This document shows positions 1-36,567 of a DNA stretch of 36,567 bases, piece by piece. The notes under the pieces were generated by a model. The model made no database searches. It was given only the letters and a program-made list of their open reading frames with translations, and was not told the DNA's origin. The translations under genes and the position numbers were made by a program. The stretch comes from a virus. The stretch is taken from positions 1 through 36,567 of IMG/VR virus record IMGVR_UViG_3300031726_000758, one strand, 5' to 3'. The first letter of the stretch is position 1. Each line of letters opens with the position of its first letter.

Positions 1-111
1 CAAAACCTGATTAGGGACGTTGGAACTGAATCCAGAGAACGCCCCCGTGTTTTGATCAGATACTAAAAGACCAGGAGAAAGGGTTCCAATGTCTGTTTGG
101 TATGTTGTCAT
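1..111 (-). CDS. Partial fibre-like protein, N-terminus only
   Basis: Only the first 37 codons lie in the window; the gene runs off the left edge. It starts with ATG at 111 after an AGG-containing ribosome site about nine bases upstream, 29 bases downstream of the previous gene's stop. The visible N-terminus (MTTYQTDIGTLSPGLLVSDQ) is rich in Ser, Thr, Gly and Asn. It resembles in style the N-termini of the beta-rich surface proteins at 33844-36565, which also begin MTT or MST followed by a Gly/Ser-rich stretch. It is probably the last member in this window of the leftward fibre/surface operon. Joining its frame to position 36567 gives no plausible continuation. The function is inferred from context only. 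Confidence 0.6.
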   Translation of the reverse strand, partial: MTTYQTDIGTLSPGLLVSDQNTGAFSGFSSNVPNQVL

Positions 112-139: not shown

Positions 140-622
140 TTAGGCCAATGTAAACGAACCACCAGTCATATTACTGATCACGAAACTCAAATTAGCAACC
201 AAACAAACGGTCGCAGCAAACTGATATTGCGCAGTCGAAGATAAAGATCCAGCTACCGTTGAAGAAGCGCCAGCAGTAAATAGTTGTTGGCCAGCAGCAA
301 GCTGAACTTTAAACCCACCACCGCCAAAAGCTGCCAGCTGTTGGATAGAACCAAAAGGAACGGTAGTAGGCATCGTGAGAGTTACAAGACCAGCATTATT
401 AGCAGAATAACCTTGGTTGATAACCATCGTAGCGGAAGTGCCCGTCACGTTGTTCCACGGAAGCGCCAAAGCGGCCGGAGGCTGCCATGAGGGGGCAGTT
501 CCTGAGCCAGTCGATGTCAAAATCGTGCCTGTAGCTCCGGTTGGAACGCCAGTGAAAGTACCCGTTCCGGAGTTGTAAACTGTACCGATAGCTGCCCCAA
601 GAGCATTGGTTGGTGTTGTCAT
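140..622 (-). CDS. Small phage fibre-type protein with a beta-rich GY...QNAGQ-like module
   Basis: This 160-residue protein has two parts. Residues 1-50 are a Gly/Thr/Ser linker ending in GSGTAPSWQ, a form common in phage fibre proteins. Residues 55-160 are a beta-rich module carrying NQGY, MPTTVPFG, GGGGFKVQLAAGQQ and a C-terminal ISNMTGGSF. The same module, with NHGY, LPVNSAFGD and ITQNAGQQI, occurs in the upstream gene at 671-1261, so the two are paralogues. Modules of this type are known to me from phage tail-fibre and environmental surface proteins, often as the final domain. It is leftward and follows its paralogue by 48 bases. The likely role is virion surface or receptor binding, which is inferred from composition and context. 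No catalytic motif is seen. Confidence 0.65.
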   Translation of the reverse strand: MTTPTNALGAAIGTVYNSGTGTFTGVPTGATGTILTSTGSGTAPSWQPPAALALPWNNVTGTSATMVINQGYSANNAGLVTLTMPTTVPFGSIQQLAAFGGGGFKVQLAAGQQLFTAGASSTVAGSLSSTAQYQFAATVCLVANLSFVISNMTGGSFTLA

Positions 623-1298: not shown

Positions 1299-1652
1299 TT
1301 ACGGAAGGGCAATATTTGTTAGTGAGCAAAATCCGCTGGAAGGTAAGGCAGAATTGGCTTTGAAACCCACAGCTACACTTCCCGAAGCCACGACTTGATT
1401 GGACTTCAAATCTAGAGTCACACTGTCGCCGGCGCCCAGATGGCCTTGAGTGGAAATGCCTCCGGAAAGGGTGTAATCAATAATCACGTTGGTGAAGTTA
1501 TTGAGAACCAGGATGGCACTTGCAGCAACGATTGTGTTAAATGTCGTGTAGGATGCCGTTATAGACCCGAAAGCAACATCTATCACAGGGGTAAGAACTG
1601 CAATTAAAGGGTTAGAATACAGCCCATGGACGCTCGAAACAGGCGCTGTCAT
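1299..1652 (-). CDS. Small virion-associated protein, function unknown
   Basis: This is a 117-residue, hydrophobic beta-rich protein (VIDVAFGSITASYTTFN, ILVLNNFTNVIIDYTLSGG, GAGDSVTLDLKSN) with no Lys-rich or catalytic motif and no clear signal peptide or membrane segment. It starts at ATG 1652, two bases from the stop codon of the upstream gene, and ends just before the fibre paralogues. The position between the portal and the fibre genes and the beta-sandwich-like pattern suggest a small virion protein such as a decoration or fibre-attachment component. I do not recognise the family. No convincing Shine-Dalgarno sequence precedes it, so it may depend on coupling to the upstream gene. Confidence 0.55.
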   Translation of the reverse strand: MTAPVSSVHGLYSNPLIAVLTPVIDVAFGSITASYTTFNTIVAASAILVLNNFTNVIIDYTLSGGISTQGHLGAGDSVTLDLKSNQVVASGSVAVGFKANSALPSSGFCSLTNIALP

Positions 1653-6804: not shown

Positions 6805-9282
6805 TTAATAAATCATCCCCTTCTCAGTCATATTCAACAACATCGCCGCCAAAACCACCGGACTCTGACAGTACTGCGTATTCTGCATCTGATCAGCGCT
6901 TAAAAAAAGCGACAACTGTAAAGTCTGTCCGGTATTCAAAACAGGCAACCTGTGCCAAATATATGTCTGTTGATACTGCAAGCCCGTCAAACCAAGATTG
7001 GTATCAGGCGCAGTTCCTATGATCGACTGAGTAATGATCGCATCACCCACAAAATTATCCGTTGAAAAGGGAACAAAATTCTCGGTCACATAACCAGAAA
7101 TCTGTCCTCCAGGGGTCGTTCCCAACAACAACCTCAACGTAGACAACTCACTTCCCATGCCTTTTTCCCAGTTGGGAGCAAACTCTTTGGTCTGTATTAA
7201 AAAGTTATCCGTAACCGCAGCTACGCCTAACCCTCCGTATGAACCTGAAGTTAACGCCGCAACCTGGACCGTATTCGTATCTACCACTTGCACAACTAAC
7301 GTACTCACCCCGTTCAGAGAGGTCGTCCCCAGGCAATTATTTATAAAAATATATTGGCCCTGGAGGAGATTATGATTATTGATTTGCAGCTCAGTGTAAG
7401 TGTCCCCGGGAGTCACCGCCTGAATGATCATGTAGGCTTCATTAAAGGTAGCATTTCCCTTGAGTAACACAGCGCCTGTAGGTGTACCACCCGCAACCTG
7501 CTGAGTGCCTGTAGAGCCGCTTAAATCGCCCCAGGTGCCTGCTGATGCCCATGTTTCATCACTATCCCATGTCAGGCTATCTTGTTGTTCGATATATTGC
7601 CCGTAACAAGTGAAAGTCTCTTGGTAGAAACTCCAGTTGTTTTCGATATAATTCAACACGATTGTCTGCGAAGGATATTTCAAGGGGTCACTCGGATAGG
7701 TAAAATACACCAGCTGCTGGAGATAATCTCTGATGCAGCAAACCCGAAGTCGTCCATTATTGTCTCGTGAAATATTCTCTGTGGCATCAGGAATTGTAGT
7801 TTGATCAATTCTTTTGACATCATTAGGCGTAGCCACAGTGATTCCAACGACATTAATGCCCAGCATCTGGTTGTCAAGCAAGACAGAAGAGAAGGGGCAG
7901 ATAGAGCCGTAGACATTGCTGATATTGAAACTGATCAGGGGCGAAATGAAATTATTGGTCGCCACGACACGCACATAAGAAGCGGACATTCCCAGGATCA
8001 GCTGCTCATAGAAAACTTCAGCAGAAACGATAGCCTGGTTGCCAGCAATAACAATAAATCCTCCATAGCCCTGAGGGGTTTCCCACCAACATGTAGGGTC
8101 TACAGTGTAGAGCGATTGGTTAACTTGACTGTAACGAATCACATCCGTTTCCTCGATGACAGACCCATCAGAAGCGGTAAGGGTAGTTCCGAGCATCAGC
8201 AAGCGGTTGGCGTATTGCAGGATAAGTTTAGCCCCCGTTATATAGTAAACCTTGAGAGTACCCGCGCTAGTCGGACTAGGAATGATAGGAGGGGCAAAAT
8301 TCTGGAATCCTTCGAAGAGAGGGGTGTTAACATAAATCCTGAGGCCGTTACCCGTGGGGTTAGCCACGCTAGAGGTTAGGTACTGGCAAATGCCGCCCGA
8401 TGTGTATGCCGAAAGGCTCACCGAAGGACCCGCAAGCAAAACGGTAAAGACAGGATCTCCGACGACTGTGACCGTTCCGACTAGGCCATTGATCTCAGTC
8501 ATGCCGAAGACTTCATAGAAAAAAACCTGATCGCCCACGATGAGGCCGTTAGAGGCTATGGAGACAGTGACGAGGTTAGGGCCTGTGGAAGTGATGTTCG
8601 TTAAAGGCTTGAAGTTGAGGGCGCTTTGCCCGTTGGAAACAAACAAGACGTCGTTATAATTCTCGAAGTCAAATTGCTGGTAATCTTCTCCGAACCATTG
8701 GACAGGATTAGGGGTAACAGAATTCATCCCGTAGAAAGAGACGTTGTAAAAAGATCGAGACGTGTAATTGAAACTGTAAGCAAAACTGGTGTCGAAGACG
8801 ATCAGAAATAGCGTCGTATCAAAGGCAACGTTCTGAAAATAGCCAAGGCCCATAACAGGGAGTCCTGGATAATAACCCACAGAAGCTTGAATAACAGTGG
8901 ACGGAGCAACCCCAGAAAGGGTGAAAGCGCCTGTAGCATAATTGAAAGATCCATAGATACTCGTGCCGTTGATGATGTTGCCTAAGCCGTCATCGGTATA
9001 AACGGTAGAGCCTAGGGTTAAACTCAAAGAAAGAGGGCCGAAGGCCGAGAAGGGGGTCGCCGTAATGGTTATCGTTCCAGAAAAAGTCCCGCTGACGCTG
9101 GTGGTCCCTATATTAGGGGAAGTGAATTCTAATTCTAGTTGGCCCAGAAGGGACGCTCCTAGCTTTTTAGCGACTACCCCTCGGCGCACAGTGGCGTTGA
9201 TAAGGTTAGCAAATTCTGTATCTTCAATGCCAAAGGCAGGCAAATATTGGTTAACACCTGCGGAGAAATTTCTTAGAAGCAT
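6805..9282 (-). CDS. Large tail hub or nozzle-like virion protein
   Basis: This 825-residue protein begins MLLRNFSAGVNQYLPAFGIE, an opening like that of podovirus tail-nozzle/stabilisation proteins of the P22 gp10 kind, and its middle alternates short beta strands with aromatic turns (YANRLLMLG, CWWETPQGYGGFIVIAGN, IVLNYIENNWSFYQE) as in a beta-propeller. Inserted modules are visible: DYATG-type (GSFNYATGAFTLSG, about 110-140) and two short modules with INGL/LNGV turns (about 230-300 and 640-700). The last part is also beta-rich. It is much longer than P22 gp10 (472 residues), mainly because of these insertions. AGGAG eight bases before ATG supports the start. It follows the fibre-like gene by 11 bases and the adaptor gene beyond that, matching head-to-tail gene order. 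It could instead be a different tail-hub protein. Confidence 0.55.
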   Translation of the reverse strand: MLLRNFSAGVNQYLPAFGIEDTEFANLINATVRRGVVAKKLGASLLGQLELEFTSPNIGTTSVSGTFSGTITITATPFSAFGPLSLSLTLGSTVYTDDGLGNIINGTSIYGSFNYATGAFTLSGVAPSTVIQASVGYYPGLPVMGLGYFQNVAFDTTLFLIVFDTSFAYSFNYTSRSFYNVSFYGMNSVTPNPVQWFGEDYQQFDFENYNDVLFVSNGQSALNFKPLTNITSTGPNLVTVSIASNGLIVGDQVFFYEVFGMTEINGLVGTVTVVGDPVFTVLLAGPSVSLSAYTSGGICQYLTSSVANPTGNGLRIYVNTPLFEGFQNFAPPIIPSPTSAGTLKVYYITGAKLILQYANRLLMLGTTLTASDGSVIEETDVIRYSQVNQSLYTVDPTCWWETPQGYGGFIVIAGNQAIVSAEVFYEQLILGMSASYVRVVATNNFISPLISFNISNVYGSICPFSSVLLDNQMLGINVVGITVATPNDVKRIDQTTIPDATENISRDNNGRLRVCCIRDYLQQLVYFTYPSDPLKYPSQTIVLNYIENNWSFYQETFTCYGQYIEQQDSLTWDSDETWASAGTWGDLSGSTGTQQVAGGTPTGAVLLKGNATFNEAYMIIQAVTPGDTYTELQINNHNLLQGQYIFINNCLGTTSLNGVSTLVVQVVDTNTVQVAALTSGSYGGLGVAAVTDNFLIQTKEFAPNWEKGMGSELSTLRLLLGTTPGGQISGYVTENFVPFSTDNFVGDAIITQSIIGTAPDTNLGLTGLQYQQTYIWHRLPVLNTGQTLQLSLFLSADQMQNTQYCQSPVVLAAMLLNMTEKGMIY

Positions 9283-21093: not shown

Positions 21094-21681
21094 CTAATCT
21101 GGGAGGCGCATTGCGGACGAGCGGGGTAATGATGAATGTTCTTCCCGGATGGAATCTAATGGTGTGCGTTGCACATATTGGATCATGTGGGAGAGGAAGA
21201 GATCGTTCATTTCATCCATGGCCGTGGTAGCAGCATTCGGCTCGTGATTAAGATATTCCACAATAAATTCATCGTCACAAGTATTGGACTTCAGATAGTT
21301 ACAGGCCTCAGCGGGATCTGGTAACGGAATGTCACTACTACGACAAAGAGGCCGAGGGGGCAATATGATATCTAAAAGTTCTCTACAAACAAGTTCTATG
21401 GTAAGAATTCCCGTTTGGGCGGTCACGGCGGTACAAACCGAGGGGTCTTCAGGGTCATTGAATTGGGTGGCGTAAGTGTAGAATTCGTTATGACCGTTTC
21501 CAGCCCAGATGTGGTTGGTGGGTTTTATATCGGCAAAAAGAGGATGTGGTGGAAGACCGGGAGGGGGAAGTTTGGGGGTGAGGGTAAACACAAATCCTTG
21601 GTGGGGGATGGTTTGAATGTCTAAAATAATATTGTGAAGATGGCATAAGGCGAAAAGGGCTTGGAAGGCGCTGTAGAGCAT
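21094..21681 (-). CDS. Paralogue A of a tandem pair, unknown family
   Basis: I start at ATG 21681 (195 residues, MLYSAFQALFALCHLHNI), which follows AAGGA at eight bases. A GTG at 21729 would add 16 residues that are really the duplicated leader of the neighbouring copy. The core (IWAGNGHNEFYTYATQFNDP, then TGILTIELVCRELLDII) is strongly conserved with the gene at 21722-22270, as is QRTPLDSIR near the C-terminus. The middle and tail differ, here Pro- and Asn-rich. No known domain or membrane helix is recognised. Tandem duplication is clear. Confidence 0.65.
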   Translation of the reverse strand: MLYSAFQALFALCHLHNIILDIQTIPHQGFVFTLTPKLPPPGLPPHPLFADIKPTNHIWAGNGHNEFYTYATQFNDPEDPSVCTAVTAQTGILTIELVCRELLDIILPPRPLCRSSDIPLPDPAEACNYLKSNTCDDEFIVEYLNHEPNAATTAMDEMNDLFLSHMIQYVQRTPLDSIREEHSSLPRSSAMRLPD

Positions 21682-21692
21682 ATTGATTTCCT

Positions 21693-21710
21693 TTAATTGC
21701 TGTATAACAT
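21693..21710 (-). pseudogene. Vestigial third start site (five codons) between the paralogues
   Basis: Between the two paralogues the sequence GAAATCAATATG TTATAC repeats the ribosome site and first codons (ATG, Leu, Tyr, Ser) of both genes, then stops after five codons (MLYSN). The unit CATATTGATTTC occurs on the plus strand at 21679, 21708 and 22268. It looks like the remnant of a third copy or the footprint of the duplication junction. It could also act as a tiny leader that couples translation. Confidence 0.5.
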
Positions 21711-21721
21711 ATTGATTTCTT

Positions 21722-22270
21722 TTAATCACAGGTAAAGGGGTGGCGTTTTAACGTTTGATATTCAGCCCGGATGGAATCTAATGGTGTGCGTTGCACATAT
21801 TCCGCGACATGCAAGAAATACAGGTTATTCAATTTGTGTGCAACTTTTAGCATTTCTTCGTCTTCGTATTGATTTACGGTTTGTTTACAATCAAAATAGG
21901 GGCCCATATACGAATTGTCCATCAATACAATCTCTTTCGGGAAAAAACCTTCCGTATCTGTTATGATATCTAAGAGCTCTCTGCAAACCAGTTCTAAGGT
22001 TAAAATCCCCGTTTCAGCTGCTAATCCAGTACATACGTTCGGGTTCTCAGGGTCATTGAATTGGGTGGCGTAAGAATAGTGATCATTATAGCCATTACCA
22101 ATCCAGACTTCGTTTTTAGGTTTTATGTAGGAGAATGACTTTGCTTTGATCATCTGGGAAGGAAATGAAATCTTTAAAATAAATCCTTTCAATTCATTCA
22201 CTTTCATTTCTATTGAAATATTGGTTGTCATACAAAAACTAAGGAGAGCTTGCGTAGCACTGTAGAGCAT
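21722..22270 (-). CDS. Paralogue B of a tandem pair, unknown family
   Basis: The 182-residue protein starts MLYSATQALLSFCMTTNISI after GGA at eight bases. It shares with its downstream neighbour the N-terminal MLYSA-QAL, the block IKPKNEVWIGNGYNDHYSYA with TQFNDPENP, TGILTLELVCRELLDII and the late QRTPLDSIR motif. Divergence is concentrated between these blocks and at the C-terminus. The conserved WxGNG-YATQFNDPE block suggests a folded domain common to both; I do not recognise it. The pair sits between a repeat-rich membrane protein and the possible ejection proteins. Confidence 0.65.
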   Translation of the reverse strand: MLYSATQALLSFCMTTNISIEMKVNELKGFILKISFPSQMIKAKSFSYIKPKNEVWIGNGYNDHYSYATQFNDPENPNVCTGLAAETGILTLELVCRELLDIITDTEGFFPKEIVLMDNSYMGPYFDCKQTVNQYEDEEMLKVAHKLNNLYFLHVAEYVQRTPLDSIRAEYQTLKRHPFTCD

Positions 22271-22299: not shown

Positions 22300-23271
22300 T
22301 TAAAAGTATCCGTGTGATTTAAGATATTTTATATATGAGTTGGGAACCTCATGTACAGATAAATTTTTATATTTACCTTTCTTAAAGCGCTTGGTCTTGA
22401 TGTCTATTAAAGACTTTAATTTGTTACTAAAGAAAGGATTCATTTCTTCCATATGACGATCAAGATCCATCTGACGATGCAGATCGAGAGAGGGGGATTC
22501 TAGATGAAACTTCTGAACAATCGCGTCTCTTAATGATTTTAAATCAGACTCAGAAAGTTGCCAGTTTGAATCTGCGCAGTTTGATTCATGACTAATAGCG
22601 CCAAAGAAATCCTGAACGCGCGCTAGCAGTGGCATGGGCGGCCGTTCATCATTCTGAGGGCGAAACTGTATATTCAAGCGCTCGGTAGCATCGCTTACAG
22701 GAGTATTTGCGCTCTGGGAATCTGGCGCTTCTGCTGGCGCTTCTGCTGGCGCTTCTGCTGGCGCTTCTGCACATGCAAGTCGTGTAGGCATAGCCACAGC
22801 GTTAGCGGCCGGAGTTGGCGCTTTAGCAGCTGGCGCTTTAGCAGAGGAGATGGGCTCAGGATTAGCTTCACTGTAAGGACGGAAATGTATAAAACGCTTT
22901 GGATGATCGCTTACAGGATTAGCATCGCTTACAGGATTAGCATCGCTTACAGGAGTATTTGCGCTCTGGGAAGGTGACAATTCTACCCAGTGGGGAGGGA
23001 TTTCGGAACTCGGTTCAGAATGCGGTTCGGAATGCGGTTCGGAATGCGGTTCGGAACTCGGCTTAGAAATACGCTTTAACCAGGACTCGCCTATGTGTAA
23101 GACGATCACAAAAAGAAGGACTAAAGCGAGACCTCCGAAGATGATAAAGCCGAGGCGGAAGAAGGTGAGGATCTCATTGAGGTGATGGATAAGGATTGGA
23201 ATAGCTTCAGAAACAGCTTGAGAGACGGATTCAGAAAGGGAAGGGGAATCTAAGACTAAGGGGAGGGACAT
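22300..23271 (-). CDS. Single-pass membrane protein with low-complexity repeats
   Basis: The 323-residue protein has one strong membrane helix (about residues 39-60, FRLGFIIFGGLALVLLFVIV) after a Ser-rich start, then a long disordered part with several perfect tandem repeats: SEPH units, NPVSDA units and AEAP units, encoded by 12- and 18-bp DNA repeats between 22722 and 23060. A 35-bp exact direct repeat at 22686-22720 and 22938-22972 encodes SQSANTPVSDA twice. The last 80 residues are charged and probably folded (LHRQMDLDRHMEEMNPFF, KTKRFKKGKYKNLSVHE). AGGAG supports the start. Roles in lysis, DNA entry or host membrane attachment are all possible; none is shown. Confidence 0.6.
   Translation of the reverse strand: MSLPLVLDSPSLSESVSQAVSEAIPILIHHLNEILTFFRLGFIIFGGLALVLLFVIVLHIGESWLKRISKPSSEPHSEPHSEPHSEPSSEIPPHWVELSPSQSANTPVSDANPVSDANPVSDHPKRFIHFRPYSEANPEPISSAKAPAAKAPTPAANAVAMPTRLACAEAPAEAPAEAPAEAPDSQSANTPVSDATERLNIQFRPQNDERPPMPLLARVQDFFGAISHESNCADSNWQLSESDLKSLRDAIVQKFHLESPSLDLHRQMDLDRHMEEMNPFFSNKLKSLIDIKTKRFKKGKYKNLSVHEVPNSYIKYLKSHGYF
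22686..23060. repeat. Cluster of in-frame tandem DNA repeats
   Basis: Within the membrane protein gene are a 12-bp unit CTGGCGCTTCTG repeated four times (22722-22769), an 18-bp unit CATCGCTTACAGGATTAG repeated two to three times (about 22905-22955), a 12-bp unit around GAATGCGGTTCG (23007-23056) and a 35-bp exact direct repeat (22686-22720 and 22938-22972). All keep the reading frame. Such arrays expand and contract by slippage. Confidence 0.75.
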
Positions 23272-23830: not shown

Positions 23831-24469
23831 ATGAAAAGATGTTACGCCCGCGTTTCAACAGAAGAACAAAGCTTAGAGAGGCAGCTTCTGACTTTTAAGG
23901 AGGCATTTGGCGGTGAGGTCTATCAAATGTATGAAGAGAAACGAACAGCGAAGGGAAGTGCGGTGAGACCGGTTCTGGAAAAATTAATAGCAGATCTAGA
24001 GGCAGGCGATGAGGTGGTCACTGACGCCGTTGACAGAATAGGCAGAAGCGTCAAAGACTTCATGGATAATATCTTTAAGATCCAGAGCAAGAAAGCCTCT
24101 TTATATATACTGAACCTACGCATGAGATTTGATGAAAACCCCTTTGCTAAGGCCATGATACAATTGCTGATGGTCTTTGCTGAATTGGAAAGGTCGATGA
24201 TCTCTGAAAGGACTAAGGATGGGTTGAAGCAAGCGAAGGCAGAAGGGAAGTTCAAAGGGAGAAAGCCCAGGATCACTGACCAAGAAATACAGTTTATCCT
24301 GGAAAAAAGAAAAAAGGGGTGGACTCTAGACAAAATCAGTAAAGCCGTAAAGGTCTCCAATTGTGGCGTTTTTAAAGCGATACAGAGATACGAGCGAGGG
24401 GAGTTTAACCTCAATAAAGAATATTGGATGGAGAAAAATAGAGATCAGATGGAGATATTAAAAAAATGA
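23831..24469 (+). CDS. Serine recombinase of the resolvase/invertase family
   Basis: The 212-residue protein has the standard small serine recombinase plan. The catalytic domain carries YARVSTEEQS with the nucleophilic Ser9 and Arg7, then VDRIGRSVKDFMD (about residues 67-79) and FAELERSMISERTKDGLKQA leading into the long E helix. The C-terminal part (about 147-187) is a helix-turn-helix (TLDKISKAVKVSNCGVFKAI). It cuts and rejoins DNA at paired sites, resolving multimers or inverting a segment. It is far too short for a large serine integrase. AAAGGA eight bases upstream supports the start. A stabilising resolvase fits a plasmid-like life style. Confidence 0.85.
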   Translation: MKRCYARVSTEEQSLERQLLTFKEAFGGEVYQMYEEKRTAKGSAVRPVLEKLIADLEAGDEVVTDAVDRIGRSVKDFMDNIFKIQSKKASLYILNLRMRFDENPFAKAMIQLLMVFAELERSMISERTKDGLKQAKAEGKFKGRKPRITDQEIQFILEKRKKGWTLDKISKAVKVSNCGVFKAIQRYERGEFNLNKEYWMEKNRDQMEILKK

Positions 24470-31197: not shown

Positions 31198-31575
31198 ATG
31201 ATTACCGCAAAAGAACTTAAGACCCGGTTTCCTACTGAACAATCATGTAGAGACCATCTGATCAAAATGAAGTTCGGGACTTCCCTGGCATGCCCAAAAT
31301 GTAAGCAAGCATTCCAGAAATTCTATGAAAAAGACAACATTCTGAAATGTCCCCATAGGTGCGGTTATACGGATTCTATCACGGAAGAAACGATTTTCTT
31401 TCGCTCTCGCGTGCCTCTGAAAAAATGGTTCTATGCTATCTATCTCATGATCATCATGAAGAACAAAGTTGAGCGAAGAATGTTGGTAAAAGATCTGAAG
31501 GTTACCTTCCCGACGGCGACCAATATGAGAGAACGCATTCAGAGTTTGGCCAATTTAAATACATTTTTTAATTAA
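31198..31575 (+). CDS. Lone IS1595-type transposase zinc-ribbon protein
   Basis: The 125-residue protein matches the N-terminal zinc ribbon of IS1595/ISPna2-type transposases: FPTEQSCRDHLIKMKFG (residues 11-27), CPKC (32-35), CPHRC (51-55), SITEETIFFRSRVPLKKWFY (60-79). The DDE nuclease domain is absent and the frame ends with a clean stop after a basic helical tail (NMRERIQSLANLNTFFN). AAGGA precedes the start. No terminal inverted repeats or target duplication are visible, so it seems to be a coopted DNA-binding module in the early operon. A truncated insertion element is the alternative. Confidence 0.75.
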   Translation: MITAKELKTRFPTEQSCRDHLIKMKFGTSLACPKCKQAFQKFYEKDNILKCPHRCGYTDSITEETIFFRSRVPLKKWFYAIYLMIIMKNKVERRMLVKDLKVTFPTATNMRERIQSLANLNTFFN

Positions 31576-31588
31576 AGTTGGCGAGCTA

Positions 31589-31798
31589 ATGTGCTTTTGT
31601 AATCCTAACTACGAGCTAATGTACCAACAGTATAAAAACCTTCACCCGGAAGATGCCGCAGAAGAGACGCTGGAAGAATGGTATGTGAACCGCGAGGAAG
31701 GCTCGGGAGAAGAAAGTGCTGATAAGCGCACGCTTATAGACCTGATGAAGCTCAAGCAAGAGATTCCTCTACGCGACGCGAATCACTGCCCTAGGTAA
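31589..31798 (+). CDS. Small acidic protein of 69 residues, unknown
   Basis: This is the last gene of the rightward early operon, 13 bases after the zinc-ribbon gene. The protein is acidic (MCFCNPNYELMYQQYKNLHP, AAEETLEEWYVNREEGSGEE) with Cys residues near the start. No strong ribosome site is seen. Its 3' end overlaps the convergent C1q-like gene by 16 bases, with no room for a separate terminator. The function is unknown. Confidence 0.5.
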   Translation: MCFCNPNYELMYQQYKNLHPEDAAEETLEEWYVNREEGSGEESADKRTLIDLMKLKQEIPLRDANHCPR

Positions 31799-32289
31799 AC
31801 CACCGTAGAACGGGAGCCTTGACTAATCTGGCCCGCACAGTCGTAATAGCCAGATCCATATGTATTTCCCATGATAGTCTGAAACTGAAATGTCTCTCCG
31901 GCAGAAACATTAATAATGCGTCTGAAGTTAGCAGTATTCTGGCGATTGTTCGTCGTTGCATTTTGACAGAAATAAAAGTTTTGTCTACCTACAAGCCCTT
32001 GGGAAAGTCCCGTGACTTGCATATACAAACTAATATTAGGATTAAAATTCGCAAAAGAACCGGTATTACAACGAGCTTTTAGGTTAAGCAAATACTTACC
32101 GGGATAATTAAGCGTAAATACTCCTGTCGTAGTGTCATAAGAAGTAGCATCGCACGCCGTTTGGATAGTGTCATAAATTATGTAACTACCCGCAGTGGTA
32201 GCGGGAATCTGAATAGTATTTTCCAGATAGACACATAAAAAATTGCTCGTAAGGAAGGGGGCCCCTCCGATGATGCCAGTATAATTCAT
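31783..32289 (-). CDS. C1q/TNF-like beta-sandwich surface protein 1
   Basis: The 168-residue protein shows the C1q-type order: a starting strand after MNYTGIIGGAPF, TIQIPATTAGSYIIYD, then YDTTTGVFTLNYPGKYLLNL (the conserved D-x-x-TG-x-F-x-x-x-x-G-x-Y core strand pair), an Asn-rich receptor-like loop, and INVSAGETFQFQTIM before the last strand. The domain forms trimers that bind sugars or proteins. Phages use it as fibre tips or capsid-surface heads. It is the last gene of the leftward surface set, with two similar genes upstream. Confidence 0.65.
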   Translation of the reverse strand: MNYTGIIGGAPFLTSNFLCVYLENTIQIPATTAGSYIIYDTIQTACDATSYDTTTGVFTLNYPGKYLLNLKARCNTGSFANFNPNISLYMQVTGLSQGLVGRQNFYFCQNATTNNRQNTANFRRIINVSAGETFQFQTIMGNTYGSGYYDCAGQISQGSRSTVVYLGQ

Positions 32290-32292
32290 AAA

Positions 32293-32760
32293 TTATGCAA
32301 AGAAGAGTACATCTCCCCAGCCTCCTGATGCTCCGGACTGTATATTATGGGCGCTGCCCGCAGTATTATCTATTGTGAAATAAAAAGTGTCGCCCGGATT
32401 TCCCACGATCATCGTGCACAAAATAATGTTCATAAAACTATTTGTGAATGCCAGACTGCCGTTGAGCGTTGCGCACGTATGATATAGGGAACCGTTCACA
32501 TAAACATTCCCGGTGAAGCCTACGTTATTAGGAACTCCTTGGAGATAGGGAGTGATATGGATAATATAACAACCCGCGAGATTGCAAGTAAAAATTCCCG
32601 TACTCGTGTTCAGGGAACAAGCCGGCTCGGGGCCAATTAACTCGATATTGGAAAATGTTAAGGTAGAACCGCTTGAATAGCTATAACTACTCCCGTTGGA
32701 AAAGATCAGGCAATTATTCGCATTATAGGGGAGACCACCTACAATTCCAGAAGTTGTCAT
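32293..32760 (-). CDS. C1q/TNF-like beta-sandwich surface protein 2
   Basis: I start at ATG 32760, which overlaps the preceding stop as TGATG and has AGGGGG upstream; an extension to 32802 only retranslates the upstream gene in another frame. The 155 residues begin MTTSGIVGGLPYNANNCLIF, contain NTSTGIFTCNLAGCYIIHIT (the C1q-type core) and a late VGNPGDTFYFTI strand, like its neighbours. The three genes are coupled and probably trimerise as fibre heads or adhesins. Identity among them is low, so they may recognise different ligands. Confidence 0.65.
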   Translation of the reverse strand: MTTSGIVGGLPYNANNCLIFSNGSSYSYSSGSTLTFSNIELIGPEPACSLNTSTGIFTCNLAGCYIIHITPYLQGVPNNVGFTGNVYVNGSLYHTCATLNGSLAFTNSFMNIILCTMIVGNPGDTFYFTIDNTAGSAHNIQSGASGGWGDVLFFA

Positions 32761-33236
32761 CAGTTCCCCCTTTGAATTAACATAACATGCACCCGAGACC
32801 AAAGAGGATTGCCGTCGATGGTCTGAGCATTCATTCCGTTGACGGTGAAATAAACAGTGTCTCCGGCGGCCAAGAGATATTCCTCATACTTAGTAAAAAT
32901 GAGCTGAGTATTAGGAGGCGCCAGGGCCCCCGAAGACCATAAATTGTCGGCTCCGCTTCCTACCCCATTTAAGAACTGAATAACGAAAACATTCCCGGTA
33001 GTTGCATTGGAAAAACTGAAAAACACCTGAAAAACAAAAATACCCCCCACCTGAGCAGTGAACACTCCTGTGGTGGTGTTATAATCCATAAAGGGCGAAG
33101 CCAGTGCAATGTTATTCCATATAATAGGAGCGTTAGTCCCCGTAGTAAGGAGCTGATTCACCGTCATCGTGCAAAAAAGAGGACCAGCAACGATCGCCGA
33201 AATCCCACCAGCCATCCCAGAAAAATTAGTGCTCAT
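32760..33236 (-). CDS. C1q/TNF-like beta-sandwich surface protein 3
   Basis: The 158-residue protein has MAGGISAIVAGPLFCTMTVN at its start, then a core YNTTTGVFTAQVGGIFVFQV, matching the D/Y-TTTG-F-x-G-x-x-x-F pattern of the two downstream paralogues, and LLAAGDTVYFTVNG before the last strand. Its ATG overlaps the upstream gene's stop as ATGA. It is the first of three coupled beta-sandwich genes. The likely role is receptor binding or capsid-surface decoration. No signal peptide is present, in keeping with a virion protein. Confidence 0.65.
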   Translation of the reverse strand: MSTNFSGMAGGISAIVAGPLFCTMTVNQLLTTGTNAPIIWNNIALASPFMDYNTTTGVFTAQVGGIFVFQVFFSFSNATTGNVFVIQFLNGVGSGADNLWSSGALAPPNTQLIFTKYEEYLLAAGDTVYFTVNGMNAQTIDGNPLWSRVHVMLIQRGN

Positions 33237-33577
33237 AGGTCTTTATACTTTTTGTGAACAGCTTTTCTTATTCCAGCCGGATCTGGCGCGTTATGGGCAT
33301 ATGCCAAAGCAGCTTTCGCCCTTTTTTTCGTATTGATCGGATAGCTATGAGGAGATGCGCCCCCTGCGCGGCCAGCAAAGTCTGAAGAAGAAACGTTTTT
33401 ATATTTTCCTTCATTGGACGAACCAGCTTTCTTACGCAATGTGGCACGCTTCTCGCGAGGTTCTTTAACCCCTCGAGCTACTGTCACTTCAGAAGATCGC
33501 TTATGCTTAGTCGCGCCCGAACGTGTACTTGCGGGCTGTCGTTTTTTCTCGGTCTCTTTTTTCATGTGTTCTTTCAT
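33233..33577 (-). CDS. Very basic protein with a conserved SYPI...AV-KKY C-terminus
   Basis: The protein has about 114 residues; the start is uncertain among ATG 33577, ATG 33565 and GTG 33589. The N-terminal half is Lys/Arg-rich and disordered (KKRQPASTRSGATKHKRSSE). The C-terminus (SDFAGRAGGASPHSYPINTK, then KRAKAALAYAHNAPDPAGIR and AVHKKY) is like the short phage and bacterial motif F-x-x-x-x-x-SYPI-x-x-x-x-A-AL...V+-AV-x-+-Y. Its 5' end overlaps the gene at 33507-33833 in another frame. Nucleic acid binding or an internal virion role is plausible. Confidence 0.55.
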   Translation of the reverse strand: MKEHMKKETEKKRQPASTRSGATKHKRSSEVTVARGVKEPREKRATLRKKAGSSNEGKYKNVSSSDFAGRAGGASPHSYPINTKKRAKAALAYAHNAPDPAGIRKAVHKKYKDL

Positions 33578-33833
33578 GACGGTCTTCACGTTTATGTTTC
33601 ATATGACGTTCTTCTTTGCGGGGTTCTTCCCTATGTCTCATCCCGCGGTGGTCAGCTTTGGCGTGAGTCATCTTTTCCATCTCCCGGCCTTCTTTACGAT
33701 GCTCTCTATGCGCTTCGCGCTTATGGCCCTTTTCCATAGCTCGGCCTTCTTTCTCGTGATCAACCTTCATCCGGTGGATGGCATCGGAGATATGTTTGTG
33801 GACCTTTTCTAGGTGTTTGATATGTTTATGCAT
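33507..33833 (-). CDS. His/Lys/Arg/Glu-rich charged protein
   Basis: I start at ATG 33833 (108 residues, MHKHIKHLEKVHKHISDAIH); the longer frame to 33962 runs through the upstream surface-protein gene. Nearly every residue after position 20 is charged or His (HKREAHREHRKEGREMEKMT, HRGMRHREEPRKEERHMKHK). The His content could bind metal; the charge pattern suggests a long single helix or disorder. The 3' part overlaps the next basic gene by about 70-80 bases. It is a possible internal DNA-binding or linker protein; the function is unknown. Confidence 0.45.
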   Translation of the reverse strand: MHKHIKHLEKVHKHISDAIHRMKVDHEKEGRAMEKGHKREAHREHRKEGREMEKMTHAKADHRGMRHREEPRKEERHMKHKREDRHERTHEKRDREKTTARKYTFGRD

Positions 33834-33843
33834 GGTGATGTCT

Positions 33844-34809
33844 TTAATTAGTTGTGAAGTTGAAGTTGAAATTGTAAGTGCTTCCCGTAACGCCCACAGC
33901 ATAGACCTCAATCGCCTGAGTCGAAGTGTTGGCCAAAAATTGAATACTCGGTCCGGTGCCAAAGGCTAACAATTCTTTTCTCACGACGTTGTCGTTGGCT
34001 AAGGCTACATTGCCAGATCCCCGGATGCCTACGAAGAAAAATGTTCCGCCGTTGTTTCCCAGAGAACTTACCGGGGTGGTCGTGCTATTAAAAGCTTCCC
34101 AACTTCCTTGAACCGCTAGAGAAGAATTCAGGGCTAACGGAAAGCTCAAACACAGGACCGCGGTGGCCGTGCTAACCAAAAATGAAATAGGATTGACGGG
34201 AAGCGAAGACTTCTCCCAGATCTCTATAGAAGAACTATTAAAAGGTGCTTGCGGAGTGCTGGCAGTAGTGCCTCGAAAAGCGCAAATGCTGAAGGTCTGA
34301 GGGCCAACAAAGTTAGATCCAATGAGAGCACACGCCTGAGCGCTGCAAATCATTCCGCTACTAGAACTCTGGTTGGCTTGATAAGCGCTGATAACAGGGC
34401 TCCCGGTCTGGTTCAAATAGCCGCACCAGATCACACTATTCCCCGCCTGTCCGAAGACAAAGTCAACATTCAGATTTAAACAAGCATAAATCTGCGAAGT
34501 GGTCGAAAGAGGGGTAAATTGAAAGCTGTAGAACAAGGCGCCTGCATTATAAACACTCGACTGTGTGCCCACTACGGTAACGTTTAGAGGACTACCACCC
34601 CCGGGGTTAGGAGCAGGGAAGTTAGTGATTTGAATGATTCCCCCTCCAGCACTGAATTGGGCATTACTGTTAAAATCAAAAGCATTACTTCCTATGCATC
34701 GCAAAAACTGAGAGTTGGTGCTAGGGGCAATCCCGAAAAGCACACCAGCATTGGTCGTGGAAGAAATGCCGTAGGTGCTTTGCGCTAAAGAATTTGTAAA
34801 TGTTGTCAT
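33844..34809 (-). CDS. Large beta-rich surface protein 1 of a related trio
   Basis: The 321-residue protein starts MTTFTNSLAQSTYGISSTTN and is almost all Ser, Thr, Asn, Gly, Ala and hydrophobic strands with few charges. It keeps the plan of its two upstream neighbours: a flexible head, a central strand-rich domain (YNAGALFYSFQFTPLSTTSQ), a middle part with SSSIEIWEKSSLPVNPISFL, and a last domain ending YAVGVTGSTYNFNFNFTTN. The start overlaps the preceding stop as ATGA. Paralogous expansion of such proteins is usual for receptor-binding or capsid-decorating sets. The role is inferred. Confidence 0.55.
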   Translation of the reverse strand: MTTFTNSLAQSTYGISSTTNAGVLFGIAPSTNSQFLRCIGSNAFDFNSNAQFSAGGGIIQITNFPAPNPGGGSPLNVTVVGTQSSVYNAGALFYSFQFTPLSTTSQIYACLNLNVDFVFGQAGNSVIWCGYLNQTGSPVISAYQANQSSSSGMICSAQACALIGSNFVGPQTFSICAFRGTTASTPQAPFNSSSIEIWEKSSLPVNPISFLVSTATAVLCLSFPLALNSSLAVQGSWEAFNSTTTPVSSLGNNGGTFFFVGIRGSGNVALANDNVVRKELLAFGTGPSIQFLANTSTQAIEVYAVGVTGSTYNFNFNFTTN

Positions 34810-35744
34810 GGCGAAATCGTCCTGAAGGAATTCTGACAGATGAAAGTCGATCCGTTTACGCCAACAATCTGAGCTTGGACCCCACCGACTTGAGGGGTAA
34901 ATGTGACCGAAGGGCTGCTATAAACAGCGTCATACAAAATGGTATTAGCAGCAATCGTAGGAGCTACCGAGGCCGGATTGCCCACTTGTTGCACGACCAG
35001 AGAAAAAGTAGCAAAGTTGCTCAGGATATTAGCACTGTCCATGAACGTCTGATAACCTATATACATAACCGAAGTGTCCGCAGCAGGGCTGGGCAACAAA
35101 AAAGAATCTACAGGCGTGGCAGACGTGCTAATCACGGAAGGGTTGACAGTGCCAGGATTAGAGCCGTTGATCTCAATGACAGAAAAAGCATCCGAAGGAG
35201 AAATGGCCTCAGTTGTAGAAGGATTAGTGCTCTGGACGCAGAAATTCACCGTAAAAGGAGTGGTAGATCCCGTTGAAAATGTAGAAGTTGCAGTGATCGG
35301 GACCGTGAAGTCCACAAGCTGCCCGTTATTGCATTGGTTATCCAGAAGAGGAGAACCGCCAGCATTCAGGAAGCCAGCCACAGTAACGATATTTCCAGAG
35401 GCTGTAGACTTCTGATAGATAGTAGCGTCAAACTCAATCAGAAAAGAACTGGCAGCCGATGTCGGCGTGATATTCATCACCAAAAATTCAGATGCCAATG
35501 TATATGTTGTGCCCCCTCCGACCTGAGGCACGAAATTAGTCGTGGTCGGATTCATGCTAACGAGCTGACGGACTGCTCCCGAGCTAGAAGGTGCTACCGT
35601 AGAAACAAAGTCATAAGTATTGGGGCCCGTGCACACTAAAACATCATCTTGAGCGGTCGACGGAATGGGAACGAAAAGGCCCGAATTATTGAGACAATTT
35701 ATCCCGGGTTGTAGAAGACCAACTGAAGAAGAAAAAGTGCTCAT
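34806..35744 (-). CDS. Large beta-rich surface protein 2 of a related trio
   Basis: The 312-residue protein begins MSTFSSSVGLLQPGINCLNN and shares with the gene upstream a late segment with S-x-TSATPV followed by F-x-DSAN-(I/L)-SN: here STSATPVDSFLLPSP and YQTFMDSANILSNFATFSLV. Its final strands (VQAQIVGVNGSTFICQNSF) parallel the ends of the other two. It is nearly free of Lys and Arg. Its start overlaps the upstream stop as TGATG, so the trio is translated as a coupled group. It is probably a homotrimeric fibre or decoration protein. Confidence 0.55.
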   Translation of the reverse strand: MSTFSSSVGLLQPGINCLNNSGLFVPIPSTAQDDVLVCTGPNTYDFVSTVAPSSSGAVRQLVSMNPTTTNFVPQVGGGTTYTLASEFLVMNITPTSAASSFLIEFDATIYQKSTASGNIVTVAGFLNAGGSPLLDNQCNNGQLVDFTVPITATSTFSTGSTTPFTVNFCVQSTNPSTTEAISPSDAFSVIEINGSNPGTVNPSVISTSATPVDSFLLPSPAADTSVMYIGYQTFMDSANILSNFATFSLVVQQVGNPASVAPTIAANTILYDAVYSSPSVTFTPQVGGVQAQIVGVNGSTFICQNSFRTISP

Positions 35745-36565
35745 CAGATACCACCAGCAATTTGTTGGTAATTGGCCTTAACCGTAAATGTTTCTGAGGC
35801 AATTCCTATGACGTCAATAACCACGTCCGTTCCGGAAACTGTGTAAGTAAGAGAGGGGGACCCAACAAGACTGAAGTCAGGTCCCGTAGTCACCGTCGTG
35901 GTGGTTCCGTTATATTCTGCCATGACCATCCAGTCTTTTTGCATATTGCTGATAAGGTTAGCCGAGTCGAAATAAGTGACCGTACCAAGAAGCCAGAGAC
36001 TGCTCGGAACACCCGGATTTCCATTGGTAGGATCAAGTGTAAGAAGGGTCACAGGAGTGGCTGAAGTGGTCGTAACGGTTGCTTCCAAGAAAGGAGAGCC
36101 CGTATTGGCAAACTCTTTTATAATGATATAATCAAAAGGAGAGCCCCCAGCCTGAGTTCCTGCAGAAGTAAAAGCACATAAGTGAATATCAATTGCATTA
36201 GCAAAAGGGATGCTTCCTACTTCCAAGGTGCCACAACACCCTGCCGAGAGGGTTGCCGAAACACCATTTAGCACTTCAGAAGACGATTGAGGTGAGGTCA
36301 GAAGAGCCGGAAAAGCATACAAGTTCGTGAAAACTGTAGCTGAAGAAACCTGAACGGTATAGAAATATTCCACAGTGAAAATAGACGTCTGGCTATAAGG
36401 GAGAAAATTACATGTAAAAACCTCAGCGCCAGCATCATAGACAGATGTTGCATTCCCGACAGTGGAAATTGTCTGAGAGGGAAAATTAGCGCCTCCGAGG
36501 TTATACACAGAAAATTGAATAAGGCCAGAACTTTGCGTAGGAGAAGGTAAGTTGGAAGTGGGCAT
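35744..36565 (-). CDS. Large beta-rich surface protein 3 of a related trio
   Basis: The 273-residue protein starts at ATG 36565, two bases from the right edge, so its ribosome site cannot be seen and an upstream in-frame extension cannot be excluded. It has VYDAGAEVFTCNFLPYSQTS (matching YNAGALFYSFQFTPLSTTSQ in the first member) and TTTSATPVTLLTLDP with VTYFDSANLISNMQKDWMVM (matching the second). The end SETFTVKANYQQIAGGI is again a strand. These shared blocks show the three genes arose by duplication. It is probably a virion surface protein. Confidence 0.55.
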   Translation of the reverse strand: MPTSNLPSPTQSSGLIQFSVYNLGGANFPSQTISTVGNATSVYDAGAEVFTCNFLPYSQTSIFTVEYFYTVQVSSATVFTNLYAFPALLTSPQSSSEVLNGVSATLSAGCCGTLEVGSIPFANAIDIHLCAFTSAGTQAGGSPFDYIIIKEFANTGSPFLEATVTTTSATPVTLLTLDPTNGNPGVPSSLWLLGTVTYFDSANLISNMQKDWMVMAEYNGTTTTVTTGPDFSLVGSPSLTYTVSGTDVVIDVIGIASETFTVKANYQQIAGGI

Positions 36566-36567
36566 GA

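Follow-up and report, generated by a model that had tools for sequence, protein, structure and literature searches.

A block of C1q-like and large beta-rich paralogues as a candidate adsorption module in a tailed phage

The podophage GP4 reportedly possesses three types of tail fibre. Receptor-binding proteins with a C1q domain have been described for marine phages, the pelagiphages, where they are encoded in hypervariable metaviromic islands (PMC3909814), and extracellular contractile injection systems have C1q-bearing tail fibres (PMC12923769). TNF/C1q-like tips also occur on the mosaic adhesive trimer (MAT) fibres of Bdellovibrio bacteriovorus, one of which was shown to bind prey glycans (PMC10769870).

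Here we analysed a virus record of 36,567 bases, which is listed without an end-repeat class or a completeness estimate; the whole stretch is called the window in the following. One gene block of this record probably encodes eight surface proteins in three families (Table 1). We regard it, with a probability of roughly 0.66, as the adsorption (host-attachment) module of a tailed phage, in which short adaptors would be combined with interchangeable binding tips.

Layout of the block and the ends of the record

Three C1q-like and three large genes had been assigned to one unit in the first-pass annotation. The open reading frames, their location on the minus strand and their paralogy are in agreement with this view (z 7.2-12.5 for the C1q-like trio and z 5.6-17.8 for the large trio, each against shuffled sequence), but two small, non-paralogous genes lie between the trios. 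These small genes overlap by 71 nt, out of frame (33507-33577). The ATGA or TGATG junctions claimed for the unit could be recovered at most gene pairs, namely as overlaps of 1 nt (TGATG) between the genes at 35744 and 34806, 4 nt (ATGA) between those at 34806 and 33844, 4 nt between 33233 and 32760 and 1 nt between 32760 and 32293, while the genes at 32293 and 31783 are separated by a 3-nt gap. Two further module-type paralogues had been noticed at 140-1261, and indeed the proteins of 140-622 and 671-1261 are 36% identical to each other in an alignment (z 7.8) and have a C-terminal domain in common. Among the repeats listed, no direct or inverted DNA repeat of note, which might betray a recently duplicated stretch or an invertible fibre cassette, is situated inside the array. 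Scans for promoters and terminators gave counts near the shuffled expectation.

The array had been described as ending at 36565, but this position only marks where the contig breaks off, inside the third large gene, whose real beginning lies elsewhere. Compared with its paralogues, the gene read from 36565 is short of its N-terminal part, and such a start occurs in a minus-strand reading frame of 37 residues at 111-1. This reading frame is matched at E 2e-4 by a large-family profile that was built without it. Further evidence came from the single detectable relative, IMGVR_UViG_3300028800_000039 (39,188 bases), which was found by a primase search of viral contigs; scans with the capsid protein and the 160-aa protein led to the same contig, which was read as two pieces, L005 and L006. 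The third large gene is intact in this relative (L006:11197-12162). Against it, the 111-1 reading frame scores above 2000 of 2000 shuffles, and the gap at the join measures approximately 10 residues (approximately 28 nt). The map of the relative also runs across its contig ends, one of which has the resolvase and small genes and the other the primase. The join sites are positions 1-111 and 36565-36567 in the window and L005 1-190 with L006 19296-19588 in the relative. Judged from these sequences, both records are best read as circular or circularly permuted genomes that were opened at different points.

Because the third large gene spans the contig ends and the relative is unbroken at this place, the genes at 140-622 and 671-1261 belong to the array unit and directly precede the large trio; they run on into the array when the contig ends are joined, as seen in the uninterrupted stretch of the relative. 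The order on the circular map is thus portal, 117 aa, 196 aa, 160 aa, three large genes, two small basic genes and three C1q-like genes. In both genomes the unit lies downstream of the portal and the 117-aa gene, on the strand of the portal. The relative has its unit in one piece, with genes for 117, 195 and 159 aa followed by three large genes (321, 312 and 316 aa) with ATGA overlaps, then a small basic gene, an unrelated 81-aa reading frame and five C1q-like genes, one of which encodes a double domain. Its small basic gene (L006:14055-14261) resembles 33507-33833 by eye, although the automatic comparison gave no match above the threshold.

Table 1. Genes and gene parts of the block in the window (aa, amino acids).
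Feature	Position	Strand	Remarks
Beta-rich small protein, 117 aa; opens the unit behind the portal	1299..1652	-	PHROG 33847, E 2e-5; function of that PHROG not assigned
Module-type protein, 196 aa	671..1261	-	C-terminal domain related to that of 140-622
160-aa protein	140..622	-	Shared 46-residue N-terminal module, followed by a domain that also occurs in 671-1261; distantly matched in Microcoleus phage My-WqHQDG, E 2e-6
First 37 codons of the third large paralogue	1..111	-	Cut by contig end; continues at 36565
Large beta-rich paralogue g3, body	35744..36565	-	N-terminus at 1-111
Large beta-rich paralogue g2, 312 aa	34806..35744	-	Shared N-terminal module; the following approximately 230 residues are beta structure
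Large beta-rich paralogue g1, 321 aa	33844..34809	-	Paralogy; orthologue in relative
Small Lys/His/Glu-rich basic protein, between the trios	33507..33833	-	By eye, similar gene at same place in relative
Small basic protein	33233..33577	-	Without counterpart at that place in relative
C1q-like protein c3, 158 aa	32760..33236	-	Predicted all-beta C1q/TNF jelly roll
C1q-like protein c2, 155 aa	32293..32760	-	Start inside TGATG at 32760; C1q profile
C1q-like protein c1, 168 aa	31783..32289	-	Pfam C1q, E 7e-4

Predicted folds and shared modules

The C1q/TNF fold proposed for the small trio is supported by sequence profiles as well as by structure prediction. The Pfam C1q family (PF00386) scored 23.0 (c3), 20.2 and 13.3 bits, all of them under the curated cut-off of 23.7, and none of the C1q-like proteins of the relative exceeded this cut-off either. 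A profile made from nine C1q-like domains, however, matched human C1q in the PDB at E 3.4e-10, as well as C1QTNF5 (9e-5), collagen X (4e-4) and further C1q and collagen VIII and X domains. The AlphaFold model of c3, predicted as a monomer, is all-beta (pLDDT 79.5) and shows a ten-strand jelly-roll fold. A Foldseek search with this model gave 372 matches in the PDB at E <= 1e-3, of which the listed 50 comprise C1q, TNF-family and BclA domains and also the spike knob of phage phi812. The TM scores against C1q/TNF structures were 0.55-0.70 by query length and approximately 0.6-0.8 by target length. Several of the C1q-like proteins start with a short G-rich stretch (SGIVGG, TGIIGG, SGMAGG), which, judged by eye only, may serve as an anchor.

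The reading of the large trio as beta-rich fibre domains is weakly supported by the model of this family (pLDDT 57, residues 1-84 unreliable), for which TNF domains, a lectin of TNF-like type and viral proteins of the tail or collagen-like kind came up as suggestive matches; profile searches with the family returned no relatives. We also considered the large proteins as tandem C1q homologues, but profile comparison gave no support despite the weak structural matches to TNF domains, and an internal duplication within them was likewise unsupported.

The suggested modularity of the set became apparent at the N-termini, where a 46-residue module is common to four proteins: it takes up residues 1 to 44-46 in the 160-aa protein and in each of the large proteins. 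The hhalign comparison of this module reached E 6e-4 with a probability of only 29%; the module is also seen in an alignment and with a profile, which was trained on the rows that it then matched. In the large orthologue pairs of the two genomes, the module is no more conserved than the rest of the protein. Hence, the idea that it works as an adaptor rests on its sharing between paralogues.

The C1q-like proteins have weak matches to PHROG families, and these are tail, minor-tail and tail-fibre and not head proteins. Together with the position of the genes after the portal instead of the capsid gene, this argues against the assumption that the proteins decorate the capsid, where they, as head fibres or decoration proteins, would stick to glycans, mucus or particles and would have no part in the choice of a receptor for DNA delivery. 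Head decoration would be a fitting role for small, repetitive beta-sandwich domains at the surface that carry short N-terminal anchors, the C1q/TNF fold is found on other particle surfaces, for example in BclA of the Bacillus exosporium, and the unit sits in the structural region. Altogether, we regard capsid decoration as the main rival of the adsorption module, though an unlikely one.

The phage and the divergence of the block from its relative

Among the proteins of the window, a terminase, portal, major capsid protein, D5-like primase, RecE-like exonuclease and RusA-like resolvase were recognised. The best terminase identity to named phages is 33%, and the capsid protein reaches 27% over half its length. 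The nearest named capsid protein comes from a record labelled Podoviridae. Compared with the podovirus-labelled record MW202713, only the capsid protein and a trace of the terminase matched. No close relative was detected among 50,697 phage records, and the large and C1q-like proteins have no homologues in this phage collection; when viral contigs were searched for exact peptides of the large, portal and C1q proteins, no match appeared. By its sequence, the phage is a member of a lineage without close named relatives. The portal matches PHROG 156 (E 3e-35) and the solved portal 8jov (E 8e-9), and aligns over 20% of its length, at approximately 25% identity, with the portals of BcepIL02, BcepMigl and others (Bcep22-type and similar phages). 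The longest reading frame encodes 825 aa, a long tape-measure-like frame is absent, and no tape measure was matched in family scans of the window proteins, many of which matched no family. A short tail, i.e. podovirus morphology, is therefore plausible. No integrase was recognised among the window proteins scanned, which cover part of the reading frames, and bacterial genomes scanned with a capsid alignment gave no match and hence neither a prophage nor a host.

Some additional features of the two genomes should be mentioned. Both encode a serine resolvase/invertase-type recombinase (window 23831-24469, L005 6005-6646; Pfam Resolvase E 3e-33 and 2e-33), which could act in the resolution of circles in a plasmid-like state. 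The window has a lone IS1595-type zinc-ribbon reading frame immediately past the C1q genes (31198-31575, E 4e-5), and the relative has a full IS1595 transposase at another place (L005 9779-10642). With a likeness of only 53-58% to proteobacterial copies, this transposase is too distant from them to point to a host. The relative also encodes an S-adenosylmethionine decarboxylase-like protein with an N-terminal hydrophobic stretch (L005 10693-11271, Pfam E 2e-27), possibly an auxiliary metabolic gene. Residues 236-300 of the 825-aa virion-structural-like protein (window 6805-9282) score as the FCCH domain of the ubiquitin-activating enzyme E1 (Pfam, 42 bits); this segment is probably a common small beta-barrel rather than an enzyme. 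The adjacent reading frames 21094-22270 and 22676-23073 show a 170-nt repeat of 74% identity (21364-21533 and 21962-22131), and several short tandem repeats occur at 22300-23271; internal or ejection proteins are the likely products of these frames.

The comparison of the window with its relative revealed a gradient of divergence. The capsid protein is 82% identical, the 323-aa protein 80%, the 825-aa hub 76%, the 353-aa protein 74% and the portal 73%. Close to the portal, the 117-aa protein is 65% identical, the 196-aa protein 52% (L006:10095-10682) and the 160-aa protein 76% (L006:10698-11177). The large proteins correspond one-to-one and in the same order to those of the relative at 38-40% identity (40% for the third), and in a tree they form three orthologous pairs with support of 90-100. 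The C1q-like proteins are 22-40% identical, have no resolved one-to-one pairing in the tree and differ in number, three genes in the window against five with six domains in the relative. Taken together, the large and C1q-like proteins at 22-40% stand against 73-82% for other structural proteins and the copy number has changed, as judged from two genomes only. Since the comparison rests on two genomes, the fast divergence could partly reflect relaxed constraint. Nevertheless, the gradient and the changed gene number fit the pattern of host-recognition or otherwise exposed proteins at the sequence level.

The preserved order of the large trio could also be taken to mean that each copy has a fixed place, as expected if the proteins were parts of the tail or its collar, with paralogues building different rings of one complex such as a hetero-oligomeric adsorption device. 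In that case no receptor choice would be involved and the divergence would indicate weak constraint. It is difficult to reconcile with such ring parts that the large proteins are so far under the identity of the other structural proteins in the same genomes and that the C1q set changes in number, so that we consider this explanation improbable. A release of the C1q-like proteins, or their display on the infected cell, for example to bind or mask its surface, is even far less probable, although they are encoded last in the unit as domains standing alone, because their predicted starts, as read from the sequence, have no evident signal peptide and the genes lie in a structural unit.

Proposed role and comparison with described systems

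For the preferred reading as an adsorption module, we infer location on the virion, trimer formation, binding, co-transcription and a role in host range as follows. Each protein would be fixed to the virion, at the tail or collar, by its short conserved N-terminal part. Exposed tips would be formed by the C-terminal beta domains, probably as trimers like other C1q/TNF domains, and may bind glycans or proteins of the cell surface. With several paralogous tips, one virion, or the lineage over time, could fit more than one receptor. The large proteins would diverge in place, while the C1q-like ones would be gained, lost, fused and replaced, and the whole block would be read as one unit. It speaks against this reading that the array genes are short and stand-alone and lack the elongated shaft usually seen in tail fibres, and that the fold of the large trio is of low confidence, with no profile match in its favour. 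As a tentative extension, which we find rather doubtful, the C1q-like end might represent an expandable array, in which a conserved core grows or shrinks a set of stand-alone trimeric tips that dock via short N-terminal peptides and provide several specificities per virion.

The block offers a compact natural system with many receptor-binding-like tips of two fold families in one small genome, and the number of tips differs in its relative. If the proposal is true, it becomes testable whether phages widen their host range by several tips at once instead of swapping one fibre.

Several fibre types on one short-tailed particle would be a likeness to podophage GP4, as far as the title reported for that phage tells. 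With the contractile injection systems, the phage would have C1q tips on phage-tail-derived fibres in common; however, those systems use single chimeric fibres with eBAP anchors, whereas the array phage has separate genes in an array (PMC12923769). The MAT fibres likewise comprise a whole set of fibre-like proteins whose tips are TNF/C1q-like, but they are typically proteins of approximately 1,000 aa with a long shaft and a tip and are situated on a cell (PMC10769870), whereas the array proteins, with 155-321 aa and short N-terminal modules, stay well below this length and belong to a phage. The two appear similar in principle, as an analogy. As in the pelagiphage islands, a C1q domain is found in a putative phage surface protein that is strongly variable against a conserved genome and encoded near tail genes, and in both cases the receptor role is deduced (PMC3909814). 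Unlike there, the lineage has no close named relative, and three to five stand-alone C1q genes in tandem are accompanied by a second, large paralogous trio. Thus, C1q receptor-binding proteins in phage islands were already known (PMC3909814), and what is new is their tandem array of varying size, the second paralogous trio and the changing number of tips.
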